A stretch of 20,187 nucleotides of DNA from a virus. The position numbers and the translations under genes are program-made. Positions 8,367 to 16,046 of this stretch are shown in pieces (within the stretch, counting starts at the first letter, position 1; each line of letters starts with the position of its first letter). The stretch is from IMG/VR virus record IMGVR_UViG_3300023296_000703, positions 1-20,187 of that record; one strand, 5' to 3'. The notes below the pieces were generated by a model. The model did no database searches. It was not told the origin of the DNA and worked only from the letters and a program-made list of their open reading frames with translations.

Positions 8367-9602
8367 TTACGCAATTGCAAAGGTACGCCTCTTAATTACT
8401 AATTCGGTCGCACCATGAACCATTGCATCAACCCTGTCAGGACTGTCTTTATTCGAATCTGGATTAAACGTTACCATTTGGCTTTCGAGTTTTGGGAACA
8501 TACCAACGTGCCATATTTTCCCTTGTTCGTAAAGGCTATAAATCGGTTCGGCTCGTAACGCTTTGCCTTTTGTGGCTGTTACTAGGATGATTCGATTGGT
8601 CTTGTCTACCTGCCTTATGACTGCCATTACCATGTCTCCACCTTGGTTCTTTTCAGCTACATAAGCATCGCAATTCCATTTTATATAGGCTTGGTTCGCA
8701 ACGGTTGCCCATTCGAGCGGGCTATATTTCCCTGAAATATCCTCCAAAACATAGATATGACCGTTTGCCGATTTGCCTAAGACTACAATTCCCGTCTCAT
8801 CACTATCCATCGTTTTAGTGACAGCTGGATCAATCGAAACAATGACCCGCACCAATTCAGGCGCAACCCGAACCCTTTGACGGTCAAGGATGGAACGATT
8901 CCAAAGCAATCCCTCAGCATCATCGAGCCAATGGCCTAAATATCTATGATTGTATCGTAATGGATTGGTTAGTCTGACCGATTCAGCTTTTGCCAGAAAT
9001 TTATCAGAAAGGTTTTCAATATTGTCTAAATAGTTATGATGAATGTAGGTAACATTTCCAATTACGCCCGTAAATTCGTTTGGAAGGTTATGAGGTTCAA
9101 ACCAACGTTTGTAATACCATGCACTTTTAAACGAGGGATTAAGGATTAAAATAACTACGTTTTTTGCGTTTTTGCTTCGTACCGTTTCATCAATGGTATC
9201 AAAATTATTTTCGTTTGGCTCTTCCTCAAATTCGTCATATATCCACATAGTCAGGTCTGGAATACCTTTGAGCTTTGCGGTTTGGTTGCCGCTTTGGGTT
9301 TTTATTCCTGAAAAGATTATTTGGTTATTCGTGTGAACGTTTATGATTTCGCTTTCCAATACCCTAAAATCTGATTCAGCCTTAAAGCTTTCAATCACTC
9401 CTTTGTATTCGGGAATGATTGACTTTTTTGCAGAGTTCATGGAATAACGGGTAGCTAATATCTTATGCCCTTTTTCATAGGTTGCTCTAATAGCTATATC
9501 CTTAGCCACAAACGTTTTACCACCTCCTCTACCACCTGTAAATATATAGTAGTTGGTTAATCCCTCATAAACCGTTTCAAACTTTTCATCTATCCTTATC
9601 AT
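8367..9602 (-). CDS. terL: terminase large subunit (ATPase and nuclease)
   Basis: The 411-residue protein is the packaging motor that translocates DNA through the portal and cuts concatemers. The N-terminal ATPase has Walker A GGRGGGKT (residues 23-30) and Walker B-like LTMWIYDE with acidic D123-E124; a coupling-type segment ILILNPSFKS follows at about 151-160. The RNase H-like nuclease has VSIDPAVTKTMDSDETG (D258 as first acid), YVLEDI (D288) and the C-terminal SPDRVDAMVHG (D392). It resembles the PBSX-family large terminase. Its start overlaps the small terminase gene by 17 bases. Confidence 0.95.
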   Translation of the reverse strand: MIRIDEKFETVYEGLTNYYIFTGGRGGGKTFVAKDIAIRATYEKGHKILATRYSMNSAKKSIIPEYKGVIESFKAESDFRVLESEIINVHTNNQIIFSGIKTQSGNQTAKLKGIPDLTMWIYDEFEEEPNENNFDTIDETVRSKNAKNVVILILNPSFKSAWYYKRWFEPHNLPNEFTGVIGNVTYIHHNYLDNIENLSDKFLAKAESVRLTNPLRYNHRYLGHWLDDAEGLLWNRSILDRQRVRVAPELVRVIVSIDPAVTKTMDSDETGIVVLGKSANGHIYVLEDISGKYSPLEWATVANQAYIKWNCDAYVAEKNQGGDMVMAVIRQVDKTNRIILVTATKGKALRAEPIYSLYEQGKIWHVGMFPKLESQMVTFNPDSNKDSPDRVDAMVHGATELVIKRRTFAIA

Positions 9603-9966
9603 TCTTACCCTTTACCCATTGAATTAATGGAATGTTCACGGGCTGGCCTCCTGTGGTGTGATCCGTATAAGTCATTGCTAAACGTTTCCTTTCGTCATCA
9701 GTACAAATCAGCTTCATTAATGCCAATTGTAAAGCGGGCGCGGTTGATTTATACCACTTTGACCGCATGGAAGACTTTATTTCAATCTTATTAATATCTA
9801 ACAAGTCTTTTAGTTCGTTACTTTCGTCACCATTAATAGGGAAATACTCATAATAGGTTTTCTTTGCAATCGGCAAAAATGCCACTACGTCTTCAATAAA
9901 AAATAACTTTCTCTTGAGTATTTCGGCCTTAGCCAGTTCGAATATTTTAGTTTTGTCGTATGCCAT
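9586..9966 (-). CDS. terS: terminase small subunit
   Basis: The 126-residue protein lies immediately before terL and overlaps it. The helical N-terminal half (TKIFELAKAEILKRK, IEDVVAFLPIAKKTYYEYFP) has the spacing of a helix-turn-helix DNA-recognition unit; a central helix-rich part (LKDLLDINKIEIKSSMRSKWY) suits oligomerisation, and ALQLALMKLICTDDERKRLA is a segment often seen in Bacteroidota phage small terminases. It would recognise the packaging site and load TerL. The gene overlaps the upstream methyltransferase fusion by 20 bases. Confidence 0.85.
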   Translation of the reverse strand: MAYDKTKIFELAKAEILKRKLFFIEDVVAFLPIAKKTYYEYFPINGDESNELKDLLDINKIEIKSSMRSKWYKSTAPALQLALMKLICTDDERKRLAMTYTDHTTGGQPVNIPLIQWVKGKNDKDR

Positions 9967-11104
9967 TGAGTTTGATTATTAAAGTAGGATCTAACGCCTT
10001 CATTCTATTTACAATTACATCACAATACTTTGGGTCGAGTTCCATGCCATAACACTTTCTTTTTAATTGGTGTGATGCTACCATTGTTGAGCCTGAACCA
10101 AGAAATAAATCCACTATAAACTCTCCTTTAAATTTATTTAACAAAATATTAAGCATGCCAATAGGTTTCATTGTTGGATGCGGCTTTATTCCGTTGACCT
10201 TATCTACCATTCTGTTTGCCCAACTCACATATTCGTATCTAAGTATCTCTCTTTTCACTTTCCTTTTACTAAAAATAGTTTCAAATGCAGAACCTATTAT
10301 TTTATCATACCTTTCTTCCACTCTTTTATCCCATATAATCCAACTACCTTCATTTTTTTTGGGAATATAATCTGAGTAATAATCAGCACCAAATAATACT
10401 ATATCATCGCAGTAGTTAAATAATGAAAATATAATAGATGGGTCAAATTGCTTGTCGTCATTTTCTATATTATCGTGTTTTCTACCGGGTTTTATTGTAT
10501 TGCTTCCCATTTTGGAAAAATCAGCATCTAAAAACATCCCATAAGGCGGATCAGTAAAAACCATATCAGCTTTCTCTTCATTCATTAACTTTGCAACGGT
10601 ATCGCTGCAAGTTGAATCACCGCACAACAAACGATGTTCTCCAATCTCGTAAAGGTCGCCTAATACCGTTATCGGTATATTTGGAGGTGTTGTATCAAAA
10701 TTATCCTCTTCTGCTTCTAGTTTTTTAACTCCAAAATCTGGAATATCCAAACCCCATTCCTCCAATTCCTCGCTATTCCATTCATCCTTTAGTTGTTCCC
10801 AATTCCATTCACCAAATGAGGCATTGTCTTTTATAAGAAATTCGGCCTTTTGCTCTTGAGTCCAATCGTCTGCAAGCAATACGGGTAATTTAGCGATTTT
10901 AAGCTCTTTTGCTGCCTTTAGCCTCATATTACCACCCAATACAATTAGTTTTCCGTCAACGTCAGTAAAACAGACCAGCGGCCTCTTTCTAAGCATATCA
11001 GGGAAGGACTCTAATGACCTTTTTAGCTTATCAAACTTTTCATCTTTTATAATCCTCGGATTGTTAGGATTCGGCTTTATTCGGTTTATGTCAACTTCTT
11101 CCAT
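9947..11104 (-). CDS. ParB-like nuclease domain fused to beta-type DNA methyltransferase
   Basis: I start at ATG 11104 (MEEVDINRIKPNPNNPR); a TTG 15 bases upstream would add five residues. The 385-residue protein has an N-terminal ParB/Srx-like domain (about 3-90) with KPNPNNPR and VLGGNMRLKAAKEL. A linker follows, then an amino-methyltransferase with LLCGDST (159-165), TDPPYG (184-189), HPTMKP (309-314) and VDLFLGSGSTMVA (331-343). DPPY precedes FLGSGST, the circular order of the beta class, giving N4-cytosine or N6-adenine methylation. Such fusions are common near terminases. It overlaps terS by 20 bases. Likely roles are protection from host restriction or marking DNA before packaging; no cognate nuclease is seen. 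Confidence 0.92.
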   Translation of the reverse strand: MEEVDINRIKPNPNNPRIIKDEKFDKLKRSLESFPDMLRKRPLVCFTDVDGKLIVLGGNMRLKAAKELKIAKLPVLLADDWTQEQKAEFLIKDNASFGEWNWEQLKDEWNSEELEEWGLDIPDFGVKKLEAEEDNFDTTPPNIPITVLGDLYEIGEHRLLCGDSTCSDTVAKLMNEEKADMVFTDPPYGMFLDADFSKMGSNTIKPGRKHDNIENDDKQFDPSIIFSLFNYCDDIVLFGADYYSDYIPKKNEGSWIIWDKRVEERYDKIIGSAFETIFSKRKVKREILRYEYVSWANRMVDKVNGIKPHPTMKPIGMLNILLNKFKGEFIVDLFLGSGSTMVASHQLKRKCYGMELDPKYCDVIVNRMKALDPTLIIKLNGIRQN

Positions 11105-11146
11105 AATAGTATTTATCAATTTTCAAATCCACCACCGATTTAGGTC

Positions 11147-13763: not shown

Positions 13764-14046
13764 AGTAGGCTTTCATGATTTCAGGTTCAATAATATTTTT
13801 CTCAGACAATATCCATTTTTGCCATTGTTCAACCGCTATAATTTTGGCCTTGGTATTGATTGCCTCCATTCTTAAAACGGTTGCATAGGTTCTAATCGAA
13901 TCAATAGACCTGACAAGCTTATTAATTTGGCTTTCCTTTTGCTTTTTTTGGTGGTAATCTAAGGTTTTTAATCTTTCATCCTCCAACTCTGAAATTACAT
14001 TAAGAATGTCGCTTTCCGCAATGATGTATTCATTAGGAACTCTCAT
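13735..14046 (-). CDS. helical (coiled-coil-like) protein of the replication operon
   Basis: The 103-residue product is almost wholly helical: ESDILNVISELEDERLKTLD then QKKQKESQINKLVRSIDSIR, with further heptad-like leucines and isoleucines and a charged C-terminus (EIMKAYYDKKQKEAN). No enzymatic motif is visible. It starts at an ATGA overlap with the 56-residue HTH-like gene and overlaps the helicase start by 29 bases, so it is co-translated with replication proteins and may act as helicase loader or partner. That role is inference from position only. Confidence 0.65.
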   Translation of the reverse strand: MRVPNEYIIAESDILNVISELEDERLKTLDYHQKKQKESQINKLVRSIDSIRTYATVLRMEAINTKAKIIAVEQWQKWILSEKNIIEPEIMKAYYDKKQKEAN

Positions 14047-14213
14047 TCTTTTATCAATTCACTTTTGTAAAGCGATTCAATTAATGACCACTCCGATTTC
14101 TTCCAATTGTCTTTCTTAATTCGCTTGTCAAGTAACGGCCTTGAAATTTCTAGCTGGTCGCAAACCCAAGATTTTGAGTGCTTTCCAATGAGGTAGTATA
14201 TTTTATTTTCCAT
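14043..14213 (-). CDS. 56-residue HTH-like protein (paralog of 14846-15013)
   Basis: A 56-codon frame from ATG 14213 reads MENKIYYLIGKHSKSWVCDQ and continues LEISRPLLDKRIKKDNWKKS. The pattern (helix, KSWVCDQLEISRPLLDKRI as probable helix-turn-helix, then NWKKSEWSLIESL helix) suggests a small Cro/Xis-like DNA-binding protein. It is a clear relative of the 55-residue product at 14846-15013, sharing YY-IG--SK-W, L-I and NWK-SE with near-identical spacing. Its stop overlaps the start of the next gene (ATGA). The upstream DNA holds AATGTAA elements and palindromes, consistent with self-regulation. Confidence 0.75.
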   Translation of the reverse strand: MENKIYYLIGKHSKSWVCDQLEISRPLLDKRIKKDNWKKSEWSLIESLYKSELIKE

Positions 14214-14221
14214 ACTGCAAG

Positions 14222-14266
14222 TTACAAAATGTAAAATAAATACACTAATGTAAATAAATTATTTAC
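14222..14266. promoter_or_regulatory. operator-like palindromes upstream of the 56-residue HTH-like gene
   Basis: TTACA-AAA-TGTAA (14222-14234) and GTAAATAA-A-TTATTTAC (14250-14266) are perfect palindromes apart from their odd centre base or bases. AATGTAA occurs at 14228-14234 and 14247-14253, 19 bases apart. This lies between the terminator at 14274-14299 and the ATG at 14213. I could not place a clean -33/-7 pair here. An operator for a small dimeric HTH protein is the likely reading. Confidence 0.5.
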
Positions 14267-14273
14267 AAACAAA

Positions 14274-14299
14274 AAAACCCTGCCATAAGACAAGGTTTT
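14274..14299 (-). terminator. rho-independent terminator after the VRR-NUC gene
   Basis: A stem AAAACCCTG / CAAGGTTTT with one C-A mismatch encloses an 8-base loop. On the minus strand it is followed by seven T residues (complement of A14271-14277). It sits 25 bases after the stop of the VRR-NUC gene and before the next transcription unit. Confidence 0.75.
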
Positions 14300-14324
14300 A
14301 TATTAATTGAGGATGGGAGTTGGA

Positions 14325-14846
14325 TTAATTTGCGTTCATCCCATCCATTACCTCTAAAAAATCATCCAATGTCTTTACTACATAGCATTCAGCATAGCCC
14401 GCTTGAATAAAGTCCTTTTGATCCTGCGATAATTTGTCTTTACCTATCTTGACCTCAAAGTAAATCGTGTGCAACGGCATCGGCCTCATTACTTTTATAT
14501 CGAGTTCGCCTCTTTGCTTTGATCCGTCCTGTGCATATGCCAGTATGCCAATAACTTCACCGGCCCGATTACCTCCAATTATTCGATTCGGTACGGTCTT
14601 GCCTGTGGTATTAACCTTTAGGGCTTTCCAAGTTGGATAAGTTCGATTGATATATTTCAAAATAAACGCTTCGAGCCATTTCGAAAGATATTCACGGTGT
14701 GCCGTATTTTTGTAGACACCGTCAACGGATAGCTTTGACCGTTCAGGAACTTTCTGGCTGCACCGATACCAAATATTAGCCCATTCGTACGCCTCGATGG
14801 AAGCGATTCGAGAAAGTTTCTTTTGATTGAATTGCGCTTGAGTCAT
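14325..14846 (-). CDS. VRR-NUC-type nuclease
   Basis: The 173-residue protein ends in a small PD-(D/E)xK nuclease of VRR-NUC type: RGELDIKVM (D116), then the strand IYFEVKIGKDKLSQDQKDFI with E131, K133 and Q143, then AGYAECYVVKTLDDFLEV. The D-x14-E-x-K spacing is what this fold requires. The N-terminal 100 residues are mostly helical and less typical. Phage VRR-NUC proteins are thought to cut branched or structured DNA during replication and packaging. It lies between the two paralogous HTH-like genes, with a one-base start/stop overlap upstream (TAATG), a GGAGG motif nearby, and a terminator after it. Confidence 0.82.
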   Translation of the reverse strand: MTQAQFNQKKLSRIASIEAYEWANIWYRCSQKVPERSKLSVDGVYKNTAHREYLSKWLEAFILKYINRTYPTWKALKVNTTGKTVPNRIIGGNRAGEVIGILAYAQDGSKQRGELDIKVMRPMPLHTIYFEVKIGKDKLSQDQKDFIQAGYAECYVVKTLDDFLEVMDGMNAN

Positions 14847-15013
14847 TACCCTACCTCCAGAAACAACTTATCAATCATCATCTCCTCCGATTCCTTCCAG
14901 TTCATAGCCTGTAATTTTATTTCGAATGTCATGTGATTGATTTGCAGCCTACCAAATAGCCACTTTTTAGACTTTCGGCCGATGATGTAATAGACTTTCT
15001 GTTTTATATTCAT
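14846..15013 (-). CDS. 55-residue HTH-like protein (paralog of 14043-14213)
   Basis: A 55-codon frame from ATG 15013 reads MNIKQKVYYIIGRKSKKWLF and continues to MNWKESEEMMIDKLFLEVG. It shares YY-IG--SK-W, L-I and NWK-SE with the 56-residue product further on, with near-identical spacing, and is likewise predicted to be a small helix-turn-helix DNA-binding protein. A GGAGG motif before the next gene and a TAATG overlap couple it to the VRR-NUC gene. AATGTAA elements lie upstream. A promoter match ends only a few bases before its ATG, so the message may be leaderless or the start may be at an internal ATG. Confidence 0.7.
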   Translation of the reverse strand: MNIKQKVYYIIGRKSKKWLFGRLQINHMTFEIKLQAMNWKESEEMMIDKLFLEVG

Positions 15014-15060: not shown

Positions 15061-15092
15061 AAAACCTCCAACCCGTTAAGGCTGGAGTTTTT
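15061..15092 (-). terminator. rho-independent terminator closing the early operon
   Basis: CTCCAACC / GGCTGGAG forms an 8-bp stem with one A-C mismatch and a 6-base loop, flanked by A and T runs. On the minus strand the run TTTTATTT follows the stem. It lies directly after the stop of the 82-residue SSB-tip gene and separates the early block from the replication block. Confidence 0.75.
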
Positions 15093-15740: not shown

Positions 15741-16046
15741 TTAGTAGTTTTGTTTCGCTCCTTCATTAATAATTTCTTCCATTATCAGCATTGATTTTGC
15801 CCATTTTGGGAAAGGTTTTGATGGGCATAGCTGATTGTAAACACTTGCTGGTTTAAATCCCATTTTCTTAGCGAAGTCTTCTGTTGAAAGGGAAAGGCTT
15901 TCCAAAAGAGAATTGAATTTTTGCTTTTGAGTTTTCCCTTCATTAGATTTTTGATTAATACTTATTTCAGAAATACTTAACGCTAATTCGCTTACGCTTG
16001 CCGTTAATAATTCTAGTTTTTTTGTAAGGCTTTGTACATTTTCCAT
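15741..16046 (-). CDS. HTH-like protein with N-terminal coiled coil
   Basis: The 101-residue protein begins with a leucine/serine heptad stretch (MENVQSLTKKLELLTASVSE and following) that could dimerise, then a lysine/glutamine-rich linker (NQKSNEGKTQKQK). The second half, FNSLLESLSLSTEDFAKKMG and KPASVYNQL, has the spacing of a phage Cro/CI-like helix-turn-helix, with STEDFAKKMGFKPASVYNQL spanning the turn. A DNA-binding early regulator is likely. It follows the 88-residue unknown gene and is followed by two tiny genes. The start has an A-rich leader (AATAAACAACAAAATG). Confidence 0.65.
   Translation of the reverse strand: MENVQSLTKKLELLTASVSELALSISEISINQKSNEGKTQKQKFNSLLESLSLSTEDFAKKMGFKPASVYNQLCPSKPFPKWAKSMLIMEEIINEGAKQNY

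Follow-up and report, generated by a model that had tools for sequence, protein, structure and literature searches.

A pair of diverged small proteins of probable helix-turn-helix type, heading a primase-helicase unit and a nuclease unit in a phage contig, as candidate regulators of their own operons

The window analysed here (the whole stretch of 20,187 nucleotides of viral DNA, to which all coordinates without further specification refer) contains two genes below the usual length cut-offs, P1 and P2, which an initial annotation had proposed as two small coding frames. Both frames exist, and they lie on the minus strand, as do the window's main genes. The features of the locus are the following:

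14043-14213, minus strand: P1, 56 aa, helix-turn-helix protein (family-level assignment)
14846-15013, minus strand: P2, 55 aa, diverged paralog of P1
13735-14046, minus strand: gene for a 103-aa protein, translationally overlapped with P1
12327-13763, minus strand: D5_N/DUF5906 primase-helicase gene, downstream in the P1 unit, one gene past the 103-aa gene
14325-14846, minus strand: VRR-NUC-like (PD-(D/E)XK) nuclease gene, 173 aa
14274-14299, minus strand: intrinsic-terminator-like hairpin upstream of P1, 11 pairs, -12.4 kcal/mol
15066-15087, minus strand: intrinsic-terminator-like hairpin upstream of P2, 9 pairs, -14.5 kcal/mol
14249-14267, no strand assigned: candidate operator upstream of P1, a perfect palindrome (9-1-9), TGTAAATAA-T-TTATTTACA
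14228-14254, minus strand: two TTTACATT repeats upstream of P1
15018-15041, minus strand: two TTACATTT repeats upstream of P2
11925-12326, no strand assigned: iteron-like array with 8-10 copies of (A)TCGTTAAAA, in both orientations and partly in 9-bp tandem, candidate replication origin

P1 is the first gene of a minus-strand unit that continues with the 103-aa gene and the D5/DUF5906 primase-helicase gene, its stop codon overlapping the ATG of the next gene (ATGA). P2 is likewise the first gene of a minus-strand unit, made up of P2 and the nuclease gene, with the stop codon of P2 overlapping the nuclease ATG (TAATG). The proposal that each small gene opens its own unit behind a terminator agrees with this layout, as a terminator-like hairpin is found directly upstream of both.

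The residues common to P1 and P2 reflect homology of the two proteins, as had been suggested. Their Smith-Waterman score is 107, against a mean of 24.4 and a maximum of 55 for shuffled sequences (0/20,000 shuffles reach 107; z=17), and 17 of 49 residues are identical in an ungapped alignment. Identity at codon positions 1, 2 and 3 amounts to 47, 65 and 41%, respectively; since second positions are the most alike and third positions the least, it is the protein sequence that seems to be kept. In the near-identical sister contig IMGVR_UViG_3300022859_000015, P2 is unchanged and P1 carries two changes, which on inspection are synonymous. No significant match to P1 or P2 was obtained among the Pfam, NCBIfam and PHROG models, nor with either protein among annotated phages, plasmids and PDB sequences; matches to phage SPO1 (E 2-10, 31%) were taken as chance. 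This lack of significant model matches, along with gene lengths under the usual cut-offs, explains why the family has been missed by annotation.

Protein-pattern searches of viral contigs returned near-identical contigs only and no further family members. Relatives of the D5, TerL and YqaJ genes outside the near-identical contigs were also without a P1/P2 family member, and a D5 scan of genome contigs led to one Mesorhizobium locus. Further relatives, the search for which had been recommended as a check, were recovered with a degenerate DNA pattern built from P1 and P2 (spacing K-x-W-[hydrophobic] ... L-x-I ... NWK), which picks out P1 and P2 in the window against an expectation of 0. This pattern matches 87 stretches of viral contigs, and translation of the 80 loci listed separates a clear group scoring 111-142 from noise at 58 or less. 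The group consists of open frames measuring 58-72 codons from stop to stop and includes, among the matches listed, at least four distinct new members in other phage contigs: L099; L108 (identical to L149); L156 (identical to L172); and L124. Their records are all fragments, the largest being of 53.7 kb. Ten columns are invariant in the alignment of the six members (I, S, K, W, L, I, N, W, K and E), and in this one alignment P1 shows 45-46% identity to the relatives and 32% to P2. The titles and abstracts found in a literature search on phage iterons, primases and helix-turn-helix (HTH) proteins do not describe such proteins. The P1/P2 family was previously uncatalogued, whereas the kind of phage regulator it would represent is a familiar one.

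The initial annotation had called P1 and P2 HTH-like, and this does not follow from the two proteins by themselves: a profile of P1 and P2 is not significantly similar to HTH_3 (42/300 shuffles are as good), and neither protein on its own reaches any HTH family. With the wider family the description holds. The six-member profile scores 20.0 against an independent HTH_3 alignment, with a maximum of 14.1 among 300 column shuffles (0/300 as good), and the sequences of the relatives display a textbook helix-turn-helix, for example WLADKLGITRPTLDTRL. L156 matches Pfam Phage_CI_repr (PF07022) in the protein search with 22.2 bits (E 1.8e-4; cut-off 22) and in the DNA search with 20.8 bits, just below that cut-off. 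A likeness to the Fis-family HTH_8 (PF02954) is seen in three relatives, in a LGI[ST]RxTLxxRL segment; these matches (E 4e-4 to 0.07) are limited to the HTH hairpin and lie below the cut-off. AlphaFold2 models of P1 and P2, computed from the two-sequence alignment, have a pLDDT of 73-75 and a pTM below 0.5, contain no HTH and are inconsistent between the paralogs; they were set aside as mutually inconsistent and of low confidence, as were the Foldseek searches of these models against the PDB, which were unusable (best E 1.5 and 0.16). Given the Pfam matches of the relatives and the six-member profile, the assignment holds at the level of sequence profiles, not from structure, and at that level the P1/P2 family is one of helix-turn-helix proteins predicted to bind DNA.

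The resemblance to Phage_CI_repr consists of the phage setting and of the alignment of residues 9-52 of two relatives with positions 10-52 of the 65 in the profile (E 1.8e-4 and 1.7e-3). P1 and P2 differ from that family in giving no match to it (neither attains 22 bits) and in being without a C-terminal oligomerisation or cleavage domain. The family moreover sits at the head of a replication operon, not in an immunity region, and no integrase was found.

The genomic setting of the relatives bears on the question of whether related phages have one or two copies. The family gene is single in each relative's record, all of these being fragments, and it follows a terminator-like hairpin at the loci whose upstream DNA is present (the L149 record starts at the family gene, so that its upstream region is absent; the hairpins of L108 and L124 were detected by RNA folding and missed by a stricter hairpin scan). 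What lies downstream varies: Prim-Pol and a DUF3987 helicase with a 4-base gene overlap in L099, BT4734_N, PriCT_1 and DUF5906 in L108 and L156 (domains scanned in L108), and a DnaD/replication-O-like protein one gene further downstream in L124. The position of P1 is orthologous to that of the family genes in all four. As the relatives have one copy, which comes after a hairpin and shortly before replication genes, P1 is the ordinary, orthologous copy. Judging from this gene order, the family's normal place is that of the first gene of a replication operon, in single copy, in unrelated phages too. It therefore seems most likely that P1 and P2 are small switches for replication genes. The nuclease gene does lie between the two paralogs, as the initial annotation had it, but "bracketing" is better read as a standard copy, P1, plus an additional one, P2, in front of the nuclease gene. 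This P2 copy is the unusual part of the arrangement.

The same position could be explained if the family consisted of replication-initiation accessories, that is, origin-recognition adaptors that bind origin repeats and bring in the primase-helicase. Lambda O and the iteron-binding Rep proteins offer a comparison for such a role. The iteron-like TCGTTAAAA array directly downstream of the window's primase-helicase gene, reached by 7/1000 shuffles, makes this the main rival reading, and the family gene is always just upstream of replication genes, with repeat-rich gaps before it in L099, L108 and L156. The repeats in these gaps, however, are not clearly above chance (44-98/1000 for L099, 393-924/1000 for L108 and 252-674/1000 for L156), the unit headed by P2 contains a nuclease and no primase, and the types of replication protein differ among the relatives, so that a specific adaptor would need to evolve anew with every change of type. 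An operon regulator fits better than a partner of one primase because its role survives exchange of the replication protein. On balance we regard origin-binding accessories as rather unlikely.

With P1 as the ordinary copy, P2 is the additional one; it has diverged fast and was either duplicated or acquired. Its branch in the six-member tree corresponds to 3.8 changes per column, in a tree that does not fix its place, and at a position occupied by A or C in P1 and the relatives it has F, typical HTH letters having been lost. The scaffold residues and the open frame are retained. Divergence is concentrated in the predicted recognition helix, where P1 and P2 are identical at 0/12 positions vs 17/37 elsewhere (hypergeometric p=0.0024, for a region chosen post hoc). 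This pattern fits a changed DNA target on a kept scaffold, the alternative being a loosened constraint on P2. The view of P1 and P2 as duplicated, diverged small proteins of a DNA-binding type, each opening a transcription unit in a replication context, is supported.

The protein encoded behind P2 had been called a VRR-NUC nuclease. Its PD-(D/E)XK residues, D116 and E131-x-K133, are invariant across this protein and the L108 and L156 nucleases, and it matches the phrog_93 endonuclease (3e-5). The nuclease assignment and the location of the gene between P1 and P2 hold; the similarity to Pfam VRR_NUC itself (14.7 bits, E=0.033) is below the 23.8-bit cut-off. No P1/P2 family member is found in front of the L108 and L156 nucleases, which speaks for the reading that P2 and the nuclease moved in as a cassette (terminator - promoter - P2 - nuclease), with P2 hitch-hiking or relaxing rather than providing a second regulatory input. 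The very long branch of P2 and its loss of typical HTH letters would be consistent with such a history. Against it, neither the scaffold residues nor the open frame of P2 has been lost, the gene has 0 changes in the sister contig, and it retains a consensus promoter and a terminator; we consider a passive cassette improbable.

The gaps between hairpin and start codon contain repeats upstream of both genes. Upstream of P1, a 9-nt palindrome arm is reached in 13/2000 shuffles, and a near-consensus -7 element (TACATTTT) shares bases with the ATG-proximal TTTACATT repeat. In front of P2, the proximal TTACATTT repeat is inside a promoter-like element, TTTG-N18-TACATTTG, the position of which would place the P2 start codon almost at the 5' end of the transcript. 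This element fits the Flavobacterium promoter consensus, TTTG/TANNTTTG (PMC6847099). The three occurrences of TTACATTT on the window's minus strand all fall within the P1 and P2 upstream gaps, and paired TTACATT elements precede both genes. TTACATT was discarded as a very strong signal, since 0/5000 for the chosen word becomes modest once word choice is corrected: a shared 7-mer with two copies per gap is found in 55/3000 shuffles (p about 0.02 after k-mer correction), the words having been chosen after the data were seen. The shared pattern of two copies per gap is therefore no more than suggestive. As to the two-input switch put forward in the initial annotation, the difference between the predicted recognition helices agrees with separate targets, but the upstream elements common to both genes reach only this modest significance. 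The Bacteroidetes -7 promoter element accounts for part of the repeats, and the repeats were not found in the same form before the relatives' genes, so they are not conserved across the family. The promoter type and the family content indicate that the host is probably a member of the Bacteroidota.

Our preferred reading, to which we assign a probability of roughly 0.6, is that P1 and P2 act as small HTH regulators of their own operons, P1 as the ordinary copy and P2 as an extra copy with a changed recognition helix. In the stretch from the upstream terminator to its start codon, each would bind operator-like repeats overlapping its promoter, and binding would set the level or timing of the downstream genes, namely the primase-helicase in the case of P1 and the nuclease in the case of P2. 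Both would probably be autoregulatory, with different DNA targets; the sign of the regulation is, like these properties, something we infer. What this reading takes from sequence is the homology, the HTH profile match, the terminator-first anatomy, the replication context and the recognition-helix divergence.

Small phage early regulators of the Cro/CII type also stand at the head of replication operons. P1 and P2 resemble them in size, in type of DNA-binding fold and in position upstream of replication genes, but they lack detectable sequence family membership, the gene is duplicated here, and no lysogeny module was recognised. The initial annotation had also offered an excision factor, and Xis proteins are indeed among the small, basic DNA-binding proteins of such a length. 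P1 and P2 lie in a replication operon and not beside an integrase, however, and neither a tyrosine integrase (PF00589) nor a serine resolvase (PF00239) was found in eight records (the window, the 28-kb sister contig and the relatives, possibly fragments), so that an excisionase or recombination directionality factor is very unlikely.

A further-reaching proposal, and a doubtful one at present, is that two mini-HTH paralogs with different recognition helices and related promoter elements would separately time the nuclease and primase units. They would then form a duplicated minimal switch in a phage in which neither an integrase nor a lysogeny module was recognised, within a family that would otherwise act as a single-copy regulator of varied replication operons. 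Because the family stands at the head of such operons, after a terminator, it is usable as a marker for them, and its candidate role in the timing of replication by these phages can be tested. P1 and P2 together make a natural example of how specificity diverges in a regulator of roughly 55 residues.

Other genes of the window deserve mention. A 101-aa protein in the early region (15741-16046; phrog_8898, 2e-9), weakly similar to HTH_3, is a second candidate regulator, with no detectable relation to the P1/P2 family. The sister contig is near-identical around the terminase region (8367-9966 in the window, 150-1764 in the sister contig, L025), but the small terminase genes of the two differ, as do the N-terminal parts of their large terminases, the C-terminal part being shared; this places a recombination breakpoint within the large terminase gene. 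A PAPS-reductase-like gene (899-1759; phrog_424, 1.7e-46) is located among the structural genes, and a ParB-like N-terminus is fused to a DNA methyltransferase at 9947-11119 (phrog_498, 8e-76; phrog_8071, 8e-27).
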